From positions 1 through 64,000 of the forward strand of contig QZJS01000053.1 of the NCBI GenBank assembly GCA_003597945.1: a stretch of 64,000 bases of DNA, in the 5' to 3' direction. The translations under genes and the position numbers were made by a program. The notes beneath the pieces are model-generated. The model had not been told where the DNA came from. It did no database searches and was given only the letters and a program-made list of their open reading frames with translations. Positions 52,894 to 63,717 of the stretch are shown here, piece by piece. The first letter of the stretch is position 1. The number at the start of each line of letters is the position of its first letter. Source of the DNA: Desulfobacteraceae bacterium. Lineage in GTDB: Bacteria > Desulfobacterota > Desulfobacteria > Desulfobacterales > Desulfosalsimonadaceae.

Positions 52894-54138
52894 ATGATTT
52901 TTTCAAGTTTCAAGTTCAATCCATTTGTAGCGGCCGGTATTACCACCGCGGGATACACAGATCCGACGCCCATCCAAATCCAGGCGATCCCGCCGATCAT
53001 GGCCGGAAACGACGTTGTGGGCCTGGCCCAGACCGGCACCGGCAAAACCGCGGCCTTTGTGCTGCCCATTCTGCATCGCCTGATGGCCGGAAAACGGGGC
53101 GTCACCCGTGCGCTCATCGTGGCGCCGACCCGTGAACTGGCCGAACAGATCCACGACGCTATCGTCGTTTTGGGAAAAAAAACCGGTCTTCGAAGCATGT
53201 CCATTTATGGCGGCGTGGCCATCGGCCCCCAGATCAAGTCGGGCAAAAAAGCCGATATTATCGTGGCCTGTCCCGGTCGTCTTCTTGATCATATCAATCG
53301 TAGAACCGTGGACCTATCGGCCCTTGAAGTGCTGGTTCTCGATGAAGCCGATCACATGTTCGACATGGGGTTTCTGCCCGATATCCGCCGCATCCTGAAA
53401 CAGATCCCGGCAAAACGCCAGACCCTGCTTTTTTCAGCCACCATGCCCCCGGAAATCAGACGCCTTGCCAATGAAAGCCTCACCGACCCGGTCACCGTGC
53501 AGGTGGGGATCACCGCTCCGGCCGAAACCGTTTCCCACGCGCTCTATCCTGTGGCGCAACATCTTAAAACGCCGCTTTTATTGAAACTACTCCAGCATAC
53601 CCGGGCCACTTCAGTACTGGTCTTCACCCGCACCAAGCACCGGGCCAAGCGCCTCGGCGAACAGTTGAGCCGGGCCGGATACAAGACGGCTTCGCTCCAG
53701 GGCAACCTCTCACAGAACCGGCGGCAGGACGCCATCAACGGCTTCCGCGACGGGACCTACCAGATACTGGTGGCCACCGACATCGCCGCCCGGGGCATTG
53801 ATATCGCCAACGTATCCCACGTGATCAACTACGATATCCCCAATACCGCCGACGCCTACATCCACCGCATCGGCCGGACCGGACGCGCCACGTGCACCGG
53901 CGACGCCTTCACCCTGATCACCACCGATGACGCCCAGATGGTGCGCGCCATTGACCGGGTCATCGGATCACCGGTCGAACGCCGGACACTTTCCGATTTT
54001 AATTACACGGCGCCATGCGCCAAAGCCGACCGGACCGATCGATCCGAATCCCCACGCCCGATCAACCGAAACCACGCCGGCCGAAAACCGGCGATCCGCC
54101 GACCGGCTTCAGCAGCGAGGGCGTCCGGTATGGCATAA
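52894..54138 (+). CDS. rhlE: DEAD-box RNA helicase, RhlE type
   Basis: All superfamily-2 motifs are present: Q-motif (GYTDPTPIQIQAIP), AQTGTGKTAAFVLPIL (I), PTRELAEQI (Ia), VLDEADHMFDMGF (II), FSATMP (III), ATDIAARGIDI (V) and HRIGRTGRA (VI). A basic C-terminal tail follows, as in RhlE. It unwinds RNA in ribosome assembly and at low temperature. The ORF track runs 42 codons further upstream, through the terminator, but AAAGAGG supports the ATG at 52894. Confidence 0.94.
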   Translation: MIFSSFKFNPFVAAGITTAGYTDPTPIQIQAIPPIMAGNDVVGLAQTGTGKTAAFVLPILHRLMAGKRGVTRALIVAPTRELAEQIHDAIVVLGKKTGLRSMSIYGGVAIGPQIKSGKKADIIVACPGRLLDHINRRTVDLSALEVLVLDEADHMFDMGFLPDIRRILKQIPAKRQTLLFSATMPPEIRRLANESLTDPVTVQVGITAPAETVSHALYPVAQHLKTPLLLKLLQHTRATSVLVFTRTKHRAKRLGEQLSRAGYKTASLQGNLSQNRRQDAINGFRDGTYQILVATDIAARGIDIANVSHVINYDIPNTADAYIHRIGRTGRATCTGDAFTLITTDDAQMVRAIDRVIGSPVERRTLSDFNYTAPCAKADRTDRSESPRPINRNHAGRKPAIRRPASAARASGMA

Positions 54139-54180
54139 TCGATAGCCGCCACCCGCGCCTGTTGGCCTTTTAGCAGAGAT

Positions 54181-54300
54181 TTACGGTTTAAAAATTTTCA
54201 GCGTCAACTCTTTGATGCTTCGATAATGCTTGGCATTGCTCGAAGCCAGGGGAAGGTTGTTTTCCGCGACGGTGGCCGCCACGATGGCGTCAAGGGTTAT
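54181..54300 (-). pseudogene. C-terminal remnant of a PIN-domain (VapC-like) toxin
   Basis: The minus strand encodes, in one frame ending at a TAA (54181-54183), a stretch DAIVAATVAENNLPLASSNA followed by KHYRSIKEL. This is the usual C-terminal third of VapC-type PIN nucleases, with the last acidic residue and N(K)KH.. pattern. The upstream part of the toxin gene is missing; a different ORF (a membrane protein) starts immediately beyond it, and no antitoxin is present. It is a relic and too short for the ORF track. Confidence 0.6.
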
Positions 54301-54301
54301 C

Positions 54302-54571
54302 CTATCCGTCCATCCTTTTCCGGACAGTTCCGATAACAATCATCGCAATGCCCATGGGAACAATGGTAATCATGCTGAGCGTCGCCATCATTCCGTATGC
54401 ACTGGTATCGTGGGGAGTGGTGATGACCAGTTCATGGTAGACGCATGAACCGATAAAGAACAGCCCGGCAAGAAGCAGAACGGCGCCCGCGGCGGCCGCT
54501 GTCCGCGGCAGGAAGTATCCAATGAGCATTGCAATCAGGATACTTGTCAGAATGTAAAAGAAAAGGTTCAT
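54302..54571 (-). CDS. Small membrane protein of unknown function
   Basis: An 89-residue protein with three hydrophobic segments (FFYILTSILIAMLIGYFL, GAVLLLAGLFFIGSCVY and MATLSMITIVPMGIAMIVIG) and a basic C-terminus. I do not recognise a family. Its stop codon lies at the very edge of the PIN remnant. The ribosome site is weak. It could be part of a replaced toxin-antitoxin locus. Confidence 0.5.
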   Translation of the reverse strand: MNLFFYILTSILIAMLIGYFLPRTAAAAGAVLLLAGLFFIGSCVYHELVITTPHDTSAYGMMATLSMITIVPMGIAMIVIGTVRKRMDG

Positions 54572-54701
54572 CCAGGCATTTTTTCAGCAATCTGTTAACA
54601 CAGCTTCTGATTAAAATTGATGAAAGGCTCTAAAACCTGTAGAATTCGCTCTACCGTCTCGGTAATCTCCCAAACAAAAGGGTCGGGGTTTTCAAAACAC
54701 G

Positions 54702-55553
54702 CTATTTCTCGTGCTTGTAATACATGACGCCGATGGCTTCGGGGCCGGCGTTGATGCCGATGGACGGGCCGAAATAGGTACGGTAAACCTCGCGGCAGTC
54801 GAAGGTGTCGGTGAACACGGTCCGCAGATTGGCCACAAGGTCCAAATTTCTGCCGTGGGCGATGGCCAGACTGATGGGCTGGGAGCCGATTTCCTTCTTG
54901 ATCATGTCGAGCATGGAAAGGATCATGTTGGGCTGCTTGCCGAAAAGCCGGGTTTTCACCTCAAGCCTGCCGTCCTCGAACCCGAGCACGGGCTTGACGC
55001 CCAGGGTAAGGCCCAGCAGGGATTTGAATCCGCCGATTTTTTTTCTTTTCCGCAGGTATTTGAGAGTGGGAATGGCGAGGTATGAAGTCGTCCCATCCAG
55101 CATCCGCTTTACCTCGTAGACAACGCTGCCCAATTCCTTTCCGGCTTTAAACATCTTGGCCGCCTCAATGACGGCGACCCCAAAGCCCATGCTGCATGAT
55201 CGGGAGTCCATGATTTCGACCCGGCATTTGGCGTCCTTGAATTCTTCCGTCACTTTTTTAGCCGTGTTAAACGTCTCGCTCAAGGCGGCCGAACAATGAA
55301 TGATCAGGATTTCATCATAACGGGATGTCCACTGCATGAATTTAAGCGCATATTCCTGGTAGGGAACGGGCTCGGTATGCATGGTTTTGTATTTTTCATA
55401 GTTTTCATAGAACTCCATGATGTTGATATCGATCCCGTCTTTGTATGTTCTTCCATCCAGAACCACATTGACCGGTAAAACTTCAATTCCCAGCTTTTTT
55501 GCAATATTGGCCGGAATATCGGCGGTGCTGTCGGTGACGATCAGTCGTTTCAT
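54702..55553 (-). CDS. DegV-family fatty-acid-binding protein
   Basis: The DegV start (MKRLIVTDSTADIPANIAKKLG), followed by VLDGRTYKDGIDINIMEFY and HCSAALSETFNTAKKV, matches the family. C-terminal GPSIGINAGPEAIGVMYY is the second family box. DegV proteins bind fatty acids for the FakA kinase in Firmicutes; in Desulfobacterota the role is unknown and no FakA gene is adjacent. The ATG at 55553 with a GGGGGGAG ribosome site is preferred to the TTG in the ORF track. Confidence 0.9.
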   Translation of the reverse strand: MKRLIVTDSTADIPANIAKKLGIEVLPVNVVLDGRTYKDGIDINIMEFYENYEKYKTMHTEPVPYQEYALKFMQWTSRYDEILIIHCSAALSETFNTAKKVTEEFKDAKCRVEIMDSRSCSMGFGVAVIEAAKMFKAGKELGSVVYEVKRMLDGTTSYLAIPTLKYLRKRKKIGGFKSLLGLTLGVKPVLGFEDGRLEVKTRLFGKQPNMILSMLDMIKKEIGSQPISLAIAHGRNLDLVANLRTVFTDTFDCREVYRTYFGPSIGINAGPEAIGVMYYKHEK

Positions 55554-55709
55554 GTTTTCTCCCCCCTCTGGCGTCAAATCGTTTACGCTGTTATCAAACG
55601 GTTAAAACAGAAAAGTAAATTGGGTTGAGTATATGATCAACTCGTTAAAAATTCAATATATTTTGGATTTTTACGCGGAATGTCGACTGCGGCGGGCAAC
55701 CCGGTTCAT

Positions 55710-57107
55710 TTAATCGCGCCGGATGCCGTATTTTCGCATACGCTTCCAGACGGTTATGCGGCTGATCCCCATTCGCCTGGCGGTTTCGGATTGATTCCAT
55801 CCGGTCTCACGGAGCATGTTCAGAAGCATCTGCTTCTCATCGGCGTGGTTCGCCTGTGGGAAATGCGCTGCTTTTCGCGGGTACGCCGTCGGCGACATGT
55901 TTCCCGCGCCTGATCCGGAGGTGATCCGATGCGGCAGGTGATCGACGCCGATACTGTTGCCCGGGCATAAAATAAACGCGTATTCGATGGTGTTTCGTAA
56001 TTCCCTGATATTGCCCGGCCATGAATAATTAACCAGAACGTCCATGGCTTCAGACGTCACCCCGGTGATCCGCTTTCCGCTGGTTTTAATATTTTGCCGG
56101 ATAAGATGCTGGACGATGGCGGGAATGTCTTCAATGCGTTGATGCAGGGGCGGACAATAGAGAGGAAACACGTTGATACGGAAAAACAGGTCTTCCCGGA
56201 ACAGTCCCCGGGCAACCATGTTTTCCAGGTCCTTATTGGTGGCGGTGATGATGCGGACATCCACCGGTACGGGGTGATGATCACCGACGCGTTCAATGGT
56301 TTTTTCCTCCAGAACGCGAAGCAGCTTCACCTGTATGGATAAGGGAAGATCTCCGATTTCATCAAGAAAGAGGCTGCCCTCGTGGGCCGCCTCAAACCGG
56401 CCGATCCGATTTTTCTCGGCGCCGGTGAACGCCCCTTTGACATGACCGAACAGCTCGCTTTCCAGCAGATTTTCATTCAGGGCCGCACAGTTAACTTTTA
56501 TAAAGGCCTTATCCAGGCGAGGACCAGCCTCGTGAAGGGCCCGCGCCACCAGTTCCTTGCCGGTGCCGCTTTCACCCTGGATCACTACCGGCGCATCCGA
56601 CTGAGCCGCGATGTCGATCAGTTGGAAAAGACGGCGGGTCAGATCGGATTTGCCCACCAGTCCAAAATACCCTTCATCCAGGTGCAAACTCCGGCGGAGA
56701 GATTTGATTTCCTGCTCCTGCCGTATGATGGGGGACATGTCGGTCAGAATTTCAACAGCCCCGAAAGTTTCGCCGTCGGCATTCCGAAGCACCGTTGCAC
56801 TTTTAAGGATATGGACGATCCGGCCGTCTTTATGGGTGATCATGCATTTTTTCGCCCGCATTTTCCCTACGGAAAAAAACCGGCACCATTTTTCCACGGG
56901 CCCCTGGGCGATAATTTTACAGCCGGTACAGTTGAGAATGCGGCAATCATTGGCCTTCAGTTCTTCCTCGGTATACCCGGTCAATCGTTCAGCCGCGGGA
57001 TTGGCCGCCATGATCCGACCGCGATGATCAATGATCAGAAGCCCGTCGTTAACGGTGTCCACAATGGTACGCCAATGCGCGCCGATACTCTCCGAAACTT
57101 CGTTCAT
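55710..57107 (-). CDS. Sigma-54-dependent activator with Cys-rich PAS sensor
   Basis: Residues 1-130 are a PAS domain with five Cys at about 55, 60, 63, 75 and 88 ([13 protein letters not shown] is the core). The AAA+ domain has [16 protein letters not shown] (Walker A), [15 protein letters not shown] (the GAFTGA sigma-54 loop) and [12 protein letters not shown] (Walker B). A Fis-type HTH ([20 protein letters not shown]) ends the protein. A bound heme or Fe-S in the PAS Cys cluster would make it a redox sensor, but no receiver domain is present. It is divergent from the cytochrome operon and very probably activates it. GGGAG precedes the ATG. Confidence 0.93.
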
Positions 57108-57149
57108 GAGATCTCCCGTCCTGGTGCGGCGATAAAACGTTAATTGTTA

Positions 57150-57200
57150 TGTTAACCTGTTAAATAGTGTATTAACAGTTGTTAATATAACCATGTTAAC
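57150..57200. promoter_or_regulatory. Candidate enhancer (UAS) repeats for the sigma-54 activator
   Basis: Several copies of TGTTAA/TTAACA cluster here: TGTTAACCTGTTAA, the near-perfect dyad ATTAACA-GT-TGTTAAT (57171-57186) and GTTAAC at 57195-57200. They lie 130-200 bases upstream of the -24/-12 promoter, the usual distance for bacterial enhancer-binding proteins. Fis-type HTHs bind such dyads. Confidence 0.6.
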
Positions 57201-57330
57201 ACTTTTTGGCAATATCGATTTCTTGCTTTTCAATCATTTTCGTTCTATCATTTAAACGTTGCCGACAAATAAGGGCTTCTGAAAAAAGTCCTGAATCTGC
57301 GCCCTTCATTTTCAGAGGATGCATAATTTT

Positions 57331-57346
57331 TGGCATTTCAATTGCA
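57331..57346 (+). promoter_or_regulatory. Sigma-54 (-24/-12) promoter of the cytochrome operon
   Basis: TGGCATTTCAATTGCA matches TGGCACG-N4-TTGCW at all but two positions, with correct GG-GC spacing. It lies 103 bases before the DUF3373 start. Confidence 0.75.
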
Positions 57347-57448
57347 TATGTGATTCTTTCAAGCTGTACGGAAAATGGTTATCAGGCACGTGTGGGGCAT
57401 CCCCCCCGCACCATGAGTGATCTTTAACCGCTTTACAGGAGGAACGCC

Positions 57449-59149
57449 ATGCAATTATCCAAACCATCCTTAATCCGCCTTACCACGGCAATCATCATCG
57501 CGATTGCCGTTTTAACGGCATTCTACTTACCGGCCATCGCCGCTGATGATCTGGAATCCCTCAAAAAAGAGGTGGACGCGTTAAACCGGAAAATCGAAAA
57601 AATGGAAAAACAGGGCGCATGGGTCAAAGACGACGTTGATGAGCTTTCCACCCGAATGGATGCGGCCGAAATGCATACCGCCACGGACAAACTTTCACTC
57701 GGCATTGAATTTCGCACCAAAGCCGACAGCATCCATTACGAGGACATCCGGTCGGCCCCGCCGGCCTTGATCCAGACCTTTTTCACGCCCCCGCCGAACG
57801 GATTCAACGGCGCCACGCTCTCCCAGATTCAAACCGCCATCGGCGGAATGGCCATGAGCGGGAATATCCCGCCCCCCCAATCCTATGATGTCGACAACGA
57901 CATTATCTATACCAATAAATTCCGGCTGAATATGAAAGGGGTGGTTAATCCGCATCTGAAATTCGACGGCCGTCTGGCTGCCTATAAGGTTTTCGGCGAC
58001 AGTACCGGGGTCAAATTCAACCAGGGCAGCCTTGGCGATATCAGCTTTGACGGGAATTCATCCAGCCTTCCCCATGGAGACGTCATCCATCTGGAACGGG
58101 CCTATTTCGCGCTGAGTGATGAATACCGCAATGTTCCCGTCAGCCTTTCCCTCGGACGGCGGCCATCCACGGACGGCCCTCCTCTGGAATACGGGAATTA
58201 CAGTCTGGTCGGCGGATCTCCGGTGGCCACCATCATCAACTGGCAATTTGACGGCGCCTCCCTCGGTTTCGGGCTTGAAAATCTCACCGGCGTTCCGGGG
58301 GCATCGTTTAAAATCTGTTACGGCGTGGGATTTGAATCCGACTGGGGCAATTCCACATCCTTAAACTACATGGAGTCCGACCTGGAAGACGTGCATATGC
58401 TCGGCTTCATCTCCGATCTTTACGACAACGGCACAACCAACCTGATGCTCAATTACGCCCGGGCATGGGATATTACCGACGGATTCACCGGATTGTCGGT
58501 CATGCCCTTTATTGTGGCAAAAGCCGACAATAACGGCGACGGCGAGAGCGAGTACTATTTTGAACAAAACCGCGGCGGATACATCAGCCGCATGGAACCC
58601 CAGACCAATATCGGCGACTGGGATGCGGCCTCTCTGCTCCTTCGGACCAACCTGAAACCGTATGTTGCCGATATTGATTTTTTCCTGGCCGGATCATGGA
58701 CCCATACCGATCCTTCCCAGATATCGAAAAATCCTTTTTTTGAAATCATGGGCATGGGCCTGCTGAGTTCCAACGGCGACCTTATGAGCCGTCACGGATA
58801 TTCAATCTATACGGGTGCGCTGTTTCCCATGCCCCTGCAGGCAAGGCTTGGCCTGGAATACAATATGGGCACCAAATACTGGTTCAATTTCACCGGGGCC
58901 GAAGACTCCCTGATCGGAAGCAAGCTGGCGGCCCGGGGCGAGGTTTATGAAGCCTACTACATTCAGCCGCTGTTTGAACGTCACTTCTTTGTCAAGCTCG
59001 GCGGCCAGCACTATGATTACCGGTATACCGGCAGCGGAAATCCATTGGGGGAACCCGTCAGCATTGCCTCAGCCAATGCCCTGAATGCCATAAATCCCGT
59101 TACCGACAAGGTATATAATTATTATCTTTCCGCAACGGTCCAGTTCTAA
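57449..59149 (+). CDS. DUF3373-type outer-membrane protein
   Basis: A signal peptide is followed by a short coiled coil (DDLESLKKEVDALNRKIEK...) and a long beta-barrel-like region of ~500 residues with repeated aromatic-ended strands; the last residues are YYLSATVQF. The layout matches DUF3373 proteins, which are found beside multiheme cytochromes in Desulfobacterota and Campylobacterota and are thought to be porins. AGGAGGAA precedes the ATG. First gene of the cytochrome operon. Confidence 0.8.
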   Translation: MQLSKPSLIRLTTAIIIAIAVLTAFYLPAIAADDLESLKKEVDALNRKIEKMEKQGAWVKDDVDELSTRMDAAEMHTATDKLSLGIEFRTKADSIHYEDIRSAPPALIQTFFTPPPNGFNGATLSQIQTAIGGMAMSGNIPPPQSYDVDNDIIYTNKFRLNMKGVVNPHLKFDGRLAAYKVFGDSTGVKFNQGSLGDISFDGNSSSLPHGDVIHLERAYFALSDEYRNVPVSLSLGRRPSTDGPPLEYGNYSLVGGSPVATIINWQFDGASLGFGLENLTGVPGASFKICYGVGFESDWGNSTSLNYMESDLEDVHMLGFISDLYDNGTTNLMLNYARAWDITDGFTGLSVMPFIVAKADNNGDGESEYYFEQNRGGYISRMEPQTNIGDWDAASLLLRTNLKPYVADIDFFLAGSWTHTDPSQISKNPFFEIMGMGLLSSNGDLMSRHGYSIYTGALFPMPLQARLGLEYNMGTKYWFNFTGAEDSLIGSKLAARGEVYEAYYIQPLFERHFFVKLGGQHYDYRYTGSGNPLGEPVSIASANALNAINPVTDKVYNYYLSATVQF

Positions 59150-59190
59150 ATGCATTTATTCCCCATATTCCCAAAAAAGGAGAAAACGCC

Positions 59191-59520
59191 ATGATGAAAC
59201 CGTTTGTTTCCGTCATCTGCTCGTTTTGCTTTGTCATTGCCGCCGCGGGCATCAGCCCGGCCGCGGACGAAGGCAATGAGCGCAAAGGCAAGTACATGTT
59301 CCGTTCCAACTGCCGGGTCTGTCATAAAGACGGGGCTTCCGCACCGGCGCTCAATCCCAACAGCAAAACCCAGGCCCAGTGGGAGCGGGCTTTTGAAAAA
59401 TATGAGCGACTTGACTGCGCGGAGGAATGGAACAAGCTGTCCGAGCAGGACCGCAAGGACATTCTGACTTATCTGACCAAATATGCGTTTGATTCTCCGT
59501 CCCCGGCAACCTGTGAATAA
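59191..59520 (+). CDS. Periplasmic monoheme cytochrome c
   Basis: A signal peptide (hydrophobic VICSFCFVIAAAGISPA) is followed by a class-I-like cytochrome c of about 80 residues with one heme motif CRVCH. There is one further Cys in LDCAEEW and another at the C-terminus (ATCE). No clear distal Met box was seen. It probably carries electrons between the octaheme protein and the DUF3373 barrel or cytochrome b. AAGGAG precedes the ATG. Confidence 0.85.
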   Translation: MMKPFVSVICSFCFVIAAAGISPAADEGNERKGKYMFRSNCRVCHKDGASAPALNPNSKTQAQWERAFEKYERLDCAEEWNKLSEQDRKDILTYLTKYAFDSPSPATCE

Positions 59521-59546
59521 TTATTTCGAGATGAAGGGGCAGCATC

Positions 59547-61151
59547 GTGAACCATAGATTGATTAAGTTTGCGGCATGCATCATCGCCGGCGGCATTCTT
59601 GTTTCAGGGGCCGCCGGCCTGGCCGAAGACGCCGACTCGATCGCTCCGGGGCGCAAAATGGCCCAGCAGGCCATGCATATCCCCGAGCACTGGACCACCG
59701 CCGATCATTCCGCCTTCGAGATATTAAACCAGCCCTTTGAAAACGGAAACGATATCACAGCCGCCTGCCTTTCCTGCCATACCCAGGCCGACGCCCAGTT
59801 TCGTGAAACCATTCACTGGACATGGTTGTCGCCCTATGATGAAAGCGGTGAGACCGGAAAAGCCGGCTATTCCGTCAATAATTTCTGCATCTCGGCCAAT
59901 AAGATGGAAGACAAGGACTGTTCATCGTGTCATACCGGCTGGAACGGCAAACACGAATCCATCAACTGCCTGCTTTGCCATTCGAAAAAAGATATTAAAT
60001 GGCGGGATGAGTTCAAGGATTATCAGTATTTCAAGGAAACCGGGGAAACGGAGATCGCCGGCGAGATCCAGCAGACCATTCGGGAAGGCGTCACCTCCAT
60101 CGGACTTCCGGGCCGACGGCATTGCGGCAAGTGTCATTTTTACGGCGGCGGCGGTGAAGCGGTCAAACACGGCGACCTGGACGCGTCTTTGATCAGCCCT
60201 AAAAAGACCCTTGACGTGCACATGGGTTCCGACGGCCAGGCCTTCGAGTGTACCCGCTGTCACACCACCACCGGCCATCGAATCGCCGGCCGGGTCTATT
60301 CCACGCCGGCGTCCATCGACCGGAAAAGTCTGGTGGAGCATGATCTGGTGCCGAAAATCATGTGCGAATCCTGCCACACCGCCAGTCCGCATGAAATCGG
60401 AGACAAAATGAACGATCATACGGACCGCGTGGCCTGTCAGAGTTGCCATATCCCGACATTCGCCAGGGAGCATCCCACCAAAATGTGGTGGGACTGGTCC
60501 AAGGCGGGGAAACTCAAAGACGGCAAACCCTATCAGGAACTCGGCGAATTCGACCGGCCGGTTTACAAGTCCATCAAGGGAGAATTCCGCTGGGAAAAGG
60601 ACGTTATTCCTGAATATTACTGGTATAACGGCTCCATCACCACATTAAAGGCCAATGACACGATCGATCCGTCCGTCACCGTGCCGGTAAGCTGGCCCGT
60701 CGGCAGCCGGGACGATGCGAATTCCCGCATTTTTCCGTTTAAGGTGCACCGGGGAAAACAGCCCTACGATAAGGTTAACAAGAATCTTATCGCGGCCCTG
60801 CTTTCACCCACGGTTGACGGATACTGGAAAACCTTCGACTGGGATGACGCCATCCGGCGGGGCATGGACATCATGGGCCTTCCCTATTCCGGGGAACTCG
60901 GGTTCGTTGATTCCAAATACGTGTTTCCGTCCACCCATATGGTGGCCCCCAAAGACGACGCCGTAAGCTGCCGGGAATGCCATCGGCGCGAGAACGGCCG
61001 CATGGCCAATCTTTCCGGTTTTTACATGCCCGGCCGGGATTATTTCAAATTGCTGGATATGGGGGGATGGGCCATTGTGTTGGCGGCGTTTCTCGGGGTG
61101 CTGGTTCACGGGCTGAGCCGGATATTTCTCAATGGCGGCAAAAGGAAATAA
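59547..61151 (+). CDS. Octaheme c-type cytochrome, tetrathionate-reductase (OTR) family
   Basis: Eight CxxCH heme motifs lie at about residues 74, 125, 141, 193, 235, 273, 297 and 475 (CLSCH, CSSCH, CLLCH, CGKCH, CTRCH, CESCH, CQSCH and CRECH). A signal peptide (LIKFAACIIAGGILVSGAAG) precedes them and a TM segment (~505-525, GWAIVLAAFLGVLVHGLS) anchors the C-terminus. The heme spacing and overall length match the octaheme tetrathionate reductase family known from Shewanella; such enzymes also reduce nitrite or hydroxylamine. The start is a GTG with AAGGGG upstream. Substrate here is unknown. Confidence 0.85.
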   Translation: MNHRLIKFAACIIAGGILVSGAAGLAEDADSIAPGRKMAQQAMHIPEHWTTADHSAFEILNQPFENGNDITAACLSCHTQADAQFRETIHWTWLSPYDESGETGKAGYSVNNFCISANKMEDKDCSSCHTGWNGKHESINCLLCHSKKDIKWRDEFKDYQYFKETGETEIAGEIQQTIREGVTSIGLPGRRHCGKCHFYGGGGEAVKHGDLDASLISPKKTLDVHMGSDGQAFECTRCHTTTGHRIAGRVYSTPASIDRKSLVEHDLVPKIMCESCHTASPHEIGDKMNDHTDRVACQSCHIPTFAREHPTKMWWDWSKAGKLKDGKPYQELGEFDRPVYKSIKGEFRWEKDVIPEYYWYNGSITTLKANDTIDPSVTVPVSWPVGSRDDANSRIFPFKVHRGKQPYDKVNKNLIAALLSPTVDGYWKTFDWDDAIRRGMDIMGLPYSGELGFVDSKYVFPSTHMVAPKDDAVSCRECHRRENGRMANLSGFYMPGRDYFKLLDMGGWAIVLAAFLGVLVHGLSRIFLNGGKRK

Positions 61152-61155
61152 CAAG

Positions 61156-61809
61156 ATGTCGAAAAAAATGAAACCCGTTTATCTGTATACGCGTTATGAG
61201 CGATCCTGGCACTGGCTCCAGATGGCGCTGATCTTCATTCTGTTGATCACCGGCCTTGAAGTGCATGGCGTTTTCACCCTGTTCGGATTCAAGCGGGCCG
61301 TTGCCATACACAACTTTACGGGAATTTCGTGGCTGATCGCCTTTGCGTTTTTTATCTTCTGGCTGTTTACCACCGGGGAATGGAAACAGTATATCCCTAC
61401 CACCAAAAAACTGTTTGCCGTTATGCTTTATTATGGATACGGCATCTTCAAAGGCCAGCCGCACCCGGTGCCCAAGCGCAAGGAAGCCAAACATAACCCG
61501 CTGCAGCGCCTGACCTACCTTGGTCTGGCGGCCTTGCTGCTGCCGCTGCAAATGATCAGCGGACTGCTTTACTGGACTTACAACTCCTGGCCGGCCGACT
61601 GGCCCTTTTTCAACGCTCTGACCCTGGGAATGGTAGCATTTGTACATATGGCCCTGGCATTTGCCATTCTTGGTTTCATTATCGTCCATGTGTATATGAC
61701 CACAACCGGGCACACCTTGTTTGCGCACATAAAAAGCATGATCACGGGATGGGAGGAAATTGAGGAAGACGAGCCCATCGAGGCATGGGAATACAAAAAA
61801 CACGCTTGA
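61156..61809 (+). CDS. Membrane cytochrome b (b561-type quinol oxidase subunit)
   Basis: A 217-residue protein with four TM segments and His residues suited to two b hemes: YERSWHWLQMALIFILLITG, AVAIHNFTGISWLIAFAFF, and AFVHMALAFAILGFIIVHVY. It resembles the gamma subunits of formate dehydrogenases and thiosulfate/polysulfide reductases. It likely takes electrons from menaquinol to the octaheme cytochrome. The ATG at 61156 with AAAGGA is preferred to 61132. Last gene of the operon. Confidence 0.88.
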   Translation: MSKKMKPVYLYTRYERSWHWLQMALIFILLITGLEVHGVFTLFGFKRAVAIHNFTGISWLIAFAFFIFWLFTTGEWKQYIPTTKKLFAVMLYYGYGIFKGQPHPVPKRKEAKHNPLQRLTYLGLAALLLPLQMISGLLYWTYNSWPADWPFFNALTLGMVAFVHMALAFAILGFIIVHVYMTTTGHTLFAHIKSMITGWEEIEEDEPIEAWEYKKHA

Positions 61810-61834
61810 CAAGTTAAAAATATCCTGTTAGCGA
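61806..61834 (+). promoter_or_regulatory. Possible promoter of the ilv leader
   Basis: TTGACA overlaps the stop of the cytochrome b gene; 17 bases on is TAGCGA, a poor -10. It would start a transcript near 61841, about 33 bases before the leader peptide. The leader may instead be read from a weaker promoter nearby. Confidence 0.3.
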
Positions 61835-61873
61835 TTGATTCGTAAATAAAAATTCTTGTGTGCGGTCGGTAAA

Positions 61874-61957
61874 ATGAATTATAGAGCCAATTTCAACATC
61901 CTGATACTTATTCTCATCCTCATCGTCGCTGTAGGCGGCGGCGGGGGCGGGTGTTGA
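61874..61957 (+). CDS. Ile/Leu/Val-rich leader peptide of the ilvD-ilvB operon
   Basis: A 27-codon ORF too short for the track. After MNYRANFN the peptide runs ILILILILIVAV, so 11 of 12 consecutive codons are Ile, Leu or Val (61898-61933), then six Gly and a Cys. The stop (61955-61957) lies in the antiterminator segment. Such leaders sense charged branched-chain tRNAs. It has no strong ribosome site (GCGGTCGGT lies before the ATG), but codon content and position before the attenuator and ilvD are compelling. Confidence 0.85.
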   Translation: MNYRANFNILILILILIVAVGGGGGGC

Positions 61958-62032
61958 TAATGGCCTGATTTAAAACAGATAAAATCAAAAAAGACCGTTA
62001 TCAGCACCAAAGCTGATAACGGTCTTTTTTTT
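61886..62032 (+). promoter_or_regulatory. Transcription attenuator of ilvDB (1:2, 2:3 and 3:4 pairings)
   Basis: Segment 1 (GCCAATTTCAAC, 61886-61897) can pair with segment 2 (GTTGATAATGGC, 61953-61964) at 10 of 12 positions. Segment 2 (to 61966) can also pair with segment 3 (AGACCGTTATCAGC, 61992-62005) at 13 of 14 positions counting two G-U pairs. Segment 3 pairs perfectly with segment 4 (GCTGATAACGGTCT, 62012-62025), which runs into a T-tract. Stalling on Ile/Leu/Val codons would uncover segment 2 and form the 2:3 antiterminator; finishing the leader covers it and allows 3:4. This is the logic of enteric ilv/leu attenuators. Confidence 0.85.
61987..62032 (+). terminator. Attenuator terminator hairpin before ilvD
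   Basis: GACCGTTATCAGC-ACCAAA-GCTGATAACGGTC is a perfect 13-base-pair stem, extended by flanking A/T pairs, with an eight-T tail ending 17 bases before the ilvD ATG. Position just before the ilvD ribosome site indicates that it regulates the operon, not that it ends the upstream one. Confidence 0.9.
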
Positions 62033-62049
62033 CCATGGAGGGTCAGATC

Positions 62050-63717
62050 ATGCATAGCGACAAGGCCAAAAAAGGGATAGAACGCGCGCCGCACCGGTCT
62101 TTGCTCAAGGCCATCGGATACACGGACGAAGAAATCGGGCGCCCCCTGGTCGGCATCGCCAATTCGGTCAACAGCATCGTGCCGGGGCATGTGCACCTGG
62201 ACAGGATCACCGAAGCGGTCAAGGCCGGGATTTATATGGCCGGCGGGACCCCCGTTGAGTTCGGGGTCATCGGCGTTTGCGACGGCATTGCCATGAATCA
62301 TGTGGGCATGAAGTATTCCCTGGGCAGCCGCGAGCTGATCGCCGATTCGGTGGAAGTCATGGCAACGGCCCACGCCTTTGACGCCATGGTGATGGTTCCC
62401 AACTGCGACAAAATCGTGCCCGGCATGCTCATGGCCGCGGCCCGGCTGGATCTGCCGGCGATTTTCATCAGCGGCGGTCCCATGCTGGCCGGCCGGCACC
62501 CCTTTGATCCGACACGGAAAGTGGACCTGATATCGGTTTTCGAGGCCGTTGGCGCGGTGCGGGCCGGAAAAATGGCCGAGGAAGAACTGCTGGCCATCGA
62601 GGATGCTGCCTGCCCCACCTGCGGGTCCTGTTCCGGCATGTTTACCGCCAATTCCATGAACTGCCTGACCGAGGTTATCGGCCTGGGCCTTCCCGGCAAC
62701 GGGACGATCCCGGCGGTGATGTCGGCCCGATTGCGCCTGGCAAAACTTGCCGGCATGAAAATCATGGAACTGCTGGAAAAAAAGATTACCCCCCGGTCCA
62801 TCCTCACGCCGGCGGCGTTTGAAAACGCCCTGACCGTGGATATGGCCCTGGGGTGTTCCACCAACACGGTGCTGCATCTGATGGCCCTGGCCCATGAGGC
62901 CGGAACGCCCATCGCCCTGGACCTGATCAACGAGATCAGCGGGCGCACGCCCCATCTCTGCTCGTTGAGCCCGGGGGGCAGGCACCACATCGAGGATCTT
63001 CATAACGCCGGCGGACTGCCGGCCCTGATGAAGATCCTGCTGGAGAAAGGATTGCTTCATGGTGACGCCATAACCGTCACCGCCGGCACTGTACGCGATA
63101 ATGTCGCGTCGGCAAGGGTCCTTGATCCGGACGTGATCCGTCCCTTAGACAATCCGTATCACGAAAAAGGCGGCCTGGCTGTATTGTTCGGCAATCTCGC
63201 GCCCAACGGTTGCGTGGTCAAACAGTCCGCGGTGGTGGAACAGATGATGCGGCACCAGGGACCGGCAAGGGTTTTTGATTCCGAGGAAGACGCGAGCAAA
63301 GCCATCCTCGGGGGCAAAATCAATAAAGGCGACGTGGTGGTGATCCGCTATGAAGGCCCCATGGGCGGGCCGGGCATGCGGGAAATGCTGACCCCGACTT
63401 CGTCGATTGCGGGCATGGGACTTGACGCCCATGTGGCTCTGATCACGGACGGCCGTTTCTCCGGAGGAACCCGGGGAGCCGCCATCGGCCACGTGTCCCC
63501 CGAGGCCATGCAGCAGGGACCCATTGCCGCGGTCCGGGAAGGCGATATGATCGCCATTGATATTCCGGATAAAAAGATTACTCTGATGGTTGATGACGCC
63601 GAGATCAAAACGCGGCTGACCACATGGCAAAAACCCGCGCCCCGCATCACAAAGGGCTATATGGCCCGGTATGCCCGGATGGTTTCATCCGCGGACAAGG
63701 GCGCGGTCATGGAATAA
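62050..63717 (+). CDS. ilvD: Dihydroxy-acid dehydratase
   Basis: IlvD dehydrates dihydroxyisovalerate and its C6 homologue in Val/Leu/Ile synthesis. Fe-S ligands are seen in [11 protein letters not shown] and [19 protein letters not shown], and [16 protein letters not shown] is the family signature near residue 440. Length (555) is normal. The ATG at 62050 has GGAGGG upstream; the ORF track starts 5 codons before. First gene after the attenuator; ilvB follows. Confidence 0.97.

Follow-up and report, generated by a model that had tools for sequence, protein, structure and literature searches.

The genes at positions 57108–61809 of the window (the whole stretch of DNA analysed, 64,000 nt) form a genuine operon that probably serves the menaquinol-linked, porin-supplied reduction of a tetrathionate-like S–S bond at a Cys/Lys heme site of an octaheme cytochrome of the OTR family (estimated probability 0.58). 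Quinone-linked OTRs are already known; what appears to be new, as judged from gene content, is a sigma-54-regulated operon of Desulfobacterales with exchangeable porin, YTD (yedE-tusA-dsrEFH type II), and rhodanese modules. Verification of reading frames, gene order, and families bore out the initial annotation of a barrel protein, an octaheme cytochrome, and a cytochrome b in one operon. The following features were assigned.

55710–57107, minus strand: orphan activator with PAS sensor, sigma-54 AAA+ domain (GAFTGA), and Fis-type HTH (Pfam matches)
56844–56945, minus strand: Cys-rich stretch of the PAS domain, C55–C88 (alignment A2)
57139–57202, no strand: clustered TTAAC/GTTAA repeats, presumably bound by the activator (repeat counts)
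57331–57346, plus strand: −24/−12 sigma-54 promoter TGGCATTTCAATTGCA (GG–GC spacing 12)
57449–59149, plus strand: DUF3373 barrel of the outer membrane, similar to general porins, with a coiled coil at its N terminus (PF11853, E = 2e-117)
59191–59520, plus strand: small exported class-I-cytochrome-c-like protein (PF13442)
59547–61151, plus strand: octaheme cytochrome of the OTR family with signal peptide and eight CxxCH motifs (TIGR04315, 1SP3)
59886–59888, plus strand: active-site Cys114, equivalent to Cys64 of 1SP3 (alignment)
60165–60167, plus strand: Lys207, equivalent to Lys153 of 1SP3 (invariant in alignment A1)
61056–61121, plus strand: membrane anchor at the OTR C terminus, H521xxxR525 being invariant (HxxxR in 104 of 104 anchored OTRs)
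61132–61809, plus strand: di-heme cytochrome b561-type subunit, PhsC-like (PF01292, E = 8e-27)

The promoter is followed by the genes for the DUF3373 barrel, the small c-type protein, OTR, and cytochrome b, and the activator gene is divergent. The assembly, from a bacterium of the sulfate-reducing type (137 contigs, 3.72 Mb, 88% complete), has its nearest kin among Desulfobacteraceae/Desulfococcaceae assemblies.

The octaheme protein scored 511.5 bits against TIGR04315 (cut-off 375), compared with about 600–640 bits for the main anchored group in the phylum, and aligned with the Shewanella oneidensis OTR structure (PDB 1SP3) over residues 58–481 (E = 5e-96). Eight His residues outside the CxxCH motifs are common to both proteins (H90, H208, H225, H244, H282, H291, H401, and H464), and counting along the alignment equates Lys207 with Lys153 and Cys114 with Cys64. 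In 1SP3, Lys153 reportedly serves as distal ligand to the active heme, a finding ascribed to Mowat et al. in 2004. Comparison with the Shewanella OTR had been proposed as a check on this Lys ligand and on a possible loss of heme spacing or active-site residues; the eight CxxCH motifs, the distal His set, Lys, and Cys are all kept in the alignment, whereas the C-terminal anchor, which had also been claimed correctly, and a dedicated b subunit set the window protein apart from 1SP3. The CxxCK active-site heme of the TvNiR and NrfA type is absent from the window OTR. Among 115 distinct OTR homologues, the position of Cys64 was occupied by an in-frame UGA in 26 (L005, L008, L009, L013, L015, L017, L021, L022, L024–L030, L032, L046, L047, L084, L085, L097, L098, L101, L103, L106, and L115) and by Cys in nearly all others. 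A hairpin-forming sequence lies just 3′ of the UGA in many cases, often CTGGTGCAGGTGCACCAG, a perfect hairpin, and across the OTR tree there are at least six switches between the Cys and UGA labels. Thus, the exchange of Cys and selenocysteine marks this residue as catalytic (thiol/selenol). Selenocysteine OTRs have already been listed from GenBank annotation (PMC13188914). The window genome also encodes a distant OTR-like protein with 10 CxxCH motifs (28–32% identity, approximately) at G000:C37:14333-15589 (L038:9169-11343), with no cytochrome b match adjoining.

The cytochrome b, with a likely start at ATG 61156, has four His residues (H27, H60, H172, and H186) that are invariant in 86 of 86 homologues, as expected for a di-heme protein of PF01292. 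Its best NCBIfam match was the thiosulfate reductase b subunit, below the cut-off of that model. The four-His di-heme b561 fold is the one of PhsC and the formate dehydrogenase gamma subunit; the partner here is an octaheme cytochrome instead of a molybdenum-iron-sulfur pair. Anchor and cytochrome b gene occurred together in 73 loci, six loci had an anchored OTR without the b gene, and none had the b gene without an anchor; at least some of the six end before or just after OTR. This co-occurrence and the four invariant His residues indicate that the anchored OTR and cytochrome b form one enzyme. The initial suggestion of a self-contained, quinol-linked OTR is supported. The view that an OTR with a transmembrane segment and a dedicated b subunit was undescribed had to be given up: the pair was present in 73 of 85 loci, and in Thermosulfurimonas dismutans, OTR (TDIS_1882) was linked to a membrane cytochrome b (TDIS_1883) in 2016 (PMC4911364). 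That pair differs in having been reported without DUF3373, a small cytochrome-like protein, a sigma-54 activator, or YTD genes beside it. Two multi-membrane proteins resembling cytochrome bd oxidase subunits by sequence appearance are encoded 3′ of the OTR operon in six loci (L065, L066, L070, L078, L080, and L099).

The AF2 model of the DUF3373 protein (pLDDT 65, pTM 0.65) shows a coiled coil leading into a barrel of many strands. A Foldseek search with this model gave OmpF/OmpK36 porins as top matches (E ≈ 1e-8) at modest TM-scores, which define the fold class only; on this model, the protein looks like an OmpF-type porin rather than a wire. The small protein of the window carries a CxxCH motif (C41/C44) and a penultimate Cys108. 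Three Cys residues are kept throughout the family (alignment A5), the last being penultimate or, in two rows, one residue earlier; the CxxCH motif is kept only in the window and L034, L053, L054, L055, L064, L104, L118, and L179, and most other members keep the second Cys alone. The designation as a monoheme cytochrome thus fits the window copy and fails for most of its orthologues. A fold search gave nothing significant (best E 0.34), the top matches all being cytochromes c. As far as these motifs tell, the small protein is no general electron carrier, and a thiol role is our guess. The invariant C-terminal Cys is reminiscent of sulfur-carrier tails.

The window OTR falls into a group of 42 Desulfobacterales rows on the OTR tree (support 100). 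The comparison of the operon across genomes, proposed earlier as a check of conserved order, revealed the small cytochrome-like gene in 39 of the 42 rows and, between activator and OTR, DUF3373 in 14 of 28 complete operons; 16 of the latter contained a gene for a triple rhodanese and 10 contained YTD genes. YTD genes (complete or partial) and/or the triple rhodanese stood beside OTR in 23 of these 28 operons versus 2 of 43 loci outside the clade (L088, weak; L103, with the gene at the far locus end), with the caveat that phylogeny and gene-neighbor counts are linked. DUF3373 and rhodanese nearly exclude each other: rhodanese was present in 2 of 14 operons with DUF3373 and in 14 of 14 without it (Fisher 6e-6, approximately four independent switches on the tree). 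After correction for phylogeny, the four independent pairs were opposite or equal each time, too few for significance. By description, the pairing of a quinone-linked sulfur reductase of the periplasm with an exported protein of three PF00581 domains also occurs in the Psr operon of Desulfurivibrio dismutans, which includes a secreted triple rhodanese and is strongly upregulated during S0 disproportionation (PMC12142623); the reductase there is the molybdoenzyme PsrABC, whereas here it is the multiheme OTR-b.

The entire YedE-TusA-Chp1-Chp2-DsrE set was found inside the OTR operon in four distinct genomes (L034, L035 = L073, L060, and L093), and two further operons with YTD genes (L054 and L064) have yedE cut by the contig end. 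L034 lies in a genome of the same family (G134), and its OTR is nearly identical to the OTR of Desulfobacteraceae bacterium Tobar14m-G18 (L054). Pfam confirmed DsrE, rhodanese, and Sulf_transp (YedE), and TusA was identified by its DARGLSCPMPMLKTKKALK-type sequence. A Chp1 profile search was positive in 65 of 395 genomes of the phylum; most of the neighborhoods retrieved contained YedE-TusA-DsrE-Chp1-Chp2, whole or in part, without OTR. Hence, the genes found within the OTR operons are members of the YTD cluster, re-read in PMC13293266 as yedE-tusA-dsrEFH type II. Their families are those of the described cluster (PMC12998232, PMC13293266); the sister copies differ in lying inside the OTR operon and in having DsrE moved to the end. 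A full-text literature search, to which subscription papers and supplements were not open, retrieved two papers that mention DUF3373 and none that describes an operon with both an octaheme OTR and YTD genes.

The window operon itself has neither YTD nor rhodanese genes. Five sister operons (L033, L077, L079, L086, and L118) likewise lack both modules, and neither their assemblies nor the window's contain Chp1, indicating that the relay is optional. In total, seven genomes with a DUF3373-only operon, the window's included, had no Chp1 of DsrEFH-II in the assembly. By its genes, the window copy is a stripped version with core enzyme and porin and without a sulfur relay. Relocation of the YTD genes within the window genome was rejected: no Chp1 match was obtained, and a YeeE paralogue on contig C12 is remote, with no other YTD gene adjoining. 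Neither dsrA nor dsrB was detected in the window assembly (88% complete), and a loss of YTD via loss of Dsr was considered and rejected, because aprA is present and DUF3373-only relatives have dsrB. Since dsrB was found in all relatives tested, the DUF3373-only ones included, an assembly gap is the likelier explanation for the missing dsrAB.

The site TGGCATTTCAATTGCA is the only exact match to TGGCAY-N5-TTGCW in the 64 kb (0.09 expected). The 14 of 16 consensus positions originally counted included four N positions; the promoter itself stood, with 10 of 12 defined positions of the strict TGGCACG...TTGCW form matched. Of 39 divergent regions from relatives, among which two pairs each stand for a single genome, 37 had a top-scoring site of at least 13.4 of 15.9, and 24 gave the full score (mononucleotide shuffles). 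The clustering of TTAAC dyads was confirmed with eight TTAAC/GTTAA in 223 bp versus 0.9 expected; summed over 29 loci, 138 were counted versus 29.5 expected, and TTAACAC was present in 19 of the 29 regions versus 1.5 expected (both by dinucleotide shuffles). Promoter and repeats recur in orthologous loci and are therefore conserved rather than due to chance; both are probably functional. The divergent activator has the AAA+ domain with GAFTGA (PF00158, E = 3e-70) and the Fis HTH (PF02954) of a sigma-54 enhancer-binding protein, next to PAS matches (PF13426/PF00989), and orthologues with 50–63% identity adjoin the same operon in relatives. Its PAS domain contains five Cys residues (C55, C60, C63, C75, and C88), of which C55, C63, C75, and C88 are almost invariant. 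The divergent GAFTGA-type activator with a Cys-rich PAS domain was thus found as annotated, and the accompanying proposals of sigma-54 control and of expression set by a sensor are supported. The PAS domain may sense a redox or reactive-sulfur signal, upon which the activator would switch on the operon from the TTAAC sites.

In the mechanism proposed, the substrate anion would enter via the DUF3373 porin, and menaquinol would be oxidized by the four-His cytochrome b, which would dock on the C-terminal OTR helix that carries the His and Arg residues. Along the heme chain, electrons would reach the Lys-ligated heme, near which Cys114 would help to cleave the S–S bond of tetrathionate or another polythionate or sulfane compound. 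In relatives, sulfane sulfur would be handed to the periplasmic triple rhodanese or would reach the Dsr system by way of YedE-TusA-DsrEFH type II. The YTD and rhodanese neighbors in the clade point to a sulfur substrate and not to nitrite or hydroxylamine; as the window operon and assembly lack the sulfur module, the assignment rests on the relatives. Sulfur compounds are further favored over nitrogen compounds by the Cys/Sec site, by the 36-fold upregulation of otr with tetrathionate in Ca. Sulfomarinibacter (PMC8528874), and by a separate NrfA in the window genome (intact gene on contig C68). A second NrfA-like gene (G000:C6:20339-21609) is seemingly split or frame-broken.

The initial annotation had named tetrathionate, nitrite, or hydroxylamine as substrates and had missed the YTD and rhodanese genes; the sulfur option gained from these genes and the other two are disfavored. 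According to the account in PMC4911364 (citing Atkinson 2007), the in vitro activity of the Shewanella OTR extends to nitrite and hydroxylamine, which could suggest a reductase or detoxification enzyme for these compounds. This role is quite improbable here, as sulfur genes occur in 23 of the 28 complete clade operons and no recognized nitrogen gene does, NrfA is already encoded, a CxxCK heme of the nitrite reductase type is absent, and Cys and Sec are exchanged at the active site. Electron transfer to extracellular acceptors through a porin-cytochrome conduit of the MtrCAB type, the outer-surface option considered earlier, would account for a barrel and a multiheme cytochrome within one operon. 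It is highly improbable and not supported: OTR is predicted to be tethered to the inner membrane with its b subunit, the modeled barrel resembles OmpF-type general porins, half of the complete operons have rhodanese instead of the barrel gene, and the small cytochrome-like protein has no heme motif in most relatives.

A sulfur enzyme might also operate in reverse, with OTR oxidizing sulfide, persulfide, or thiosulfate, cytochrome b reducing menaquinone, and the rhodanese or the YedE-TusA-DsrEFH-II relay feeding sulfane sulfur to a reversed Dsr. For sulfate reducers, the YTD genes, here in the same operon, have been interpreted as a module of DSR-based sulfur oxidation, DsrEFH-II being proposed to serve sulfur oxidation (PMC13293266), and the presence of dsrB in all relatives tested is in line with this. 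We regard it as unlikely, because the known OTR activities are reductive, the step from thiosulfate to tetrathionate would be uphill with menaquinone by the values given in PMC9751629, and Chp1 is missing from the DUF3373-only genomes mentioned above. As to direction, known OTR activity and quinone potentials favor reduction, and the proposed role of DsrEFH-II favors oxidation.

The crystal structure of OTR dates from 2004, and no physiological role has been agreed on since; YTD/dsrEFH-II is widely used to recognize sulfate reducers that disproportionate or oxidize sulfur, a use that is contested. The sulfur-transfer genes in the sister operons are a strong genetic clue to the natural role of OTR, and the occurrence of OTR and YTD in one regulated operon links two open questions and makes both testable. 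Tentatively, OTR-cytochrome b of the clade may be dedicated to feeding (or draining) the YedE-TusA-DsrEFH type II relay as its quinone-linked converter in the periplasm, with exchangeable modules (porin plus YTD, or triple rhodanese) that answer to a single sigma-54 switch whose sulfur or redox sensor is rich in Cys. If true, this would provide a physiological role for OTR and the missing upstream partner of the YTD cluster. The cultured relative Desulfospira joergensenii carries the rhodanese form of the operon.

No known RNA elements were found at 54000–62200. A leader-peptide-like reading frame rich in Ile, Leu, and Val (MNYRANFNILILILILIVAVGGGGGGC) and a terminator hairpin of 19 pairs directly precede ilvD (window positions 61876–62035) and are likely to form a branched-chain amino-acid attenuator.
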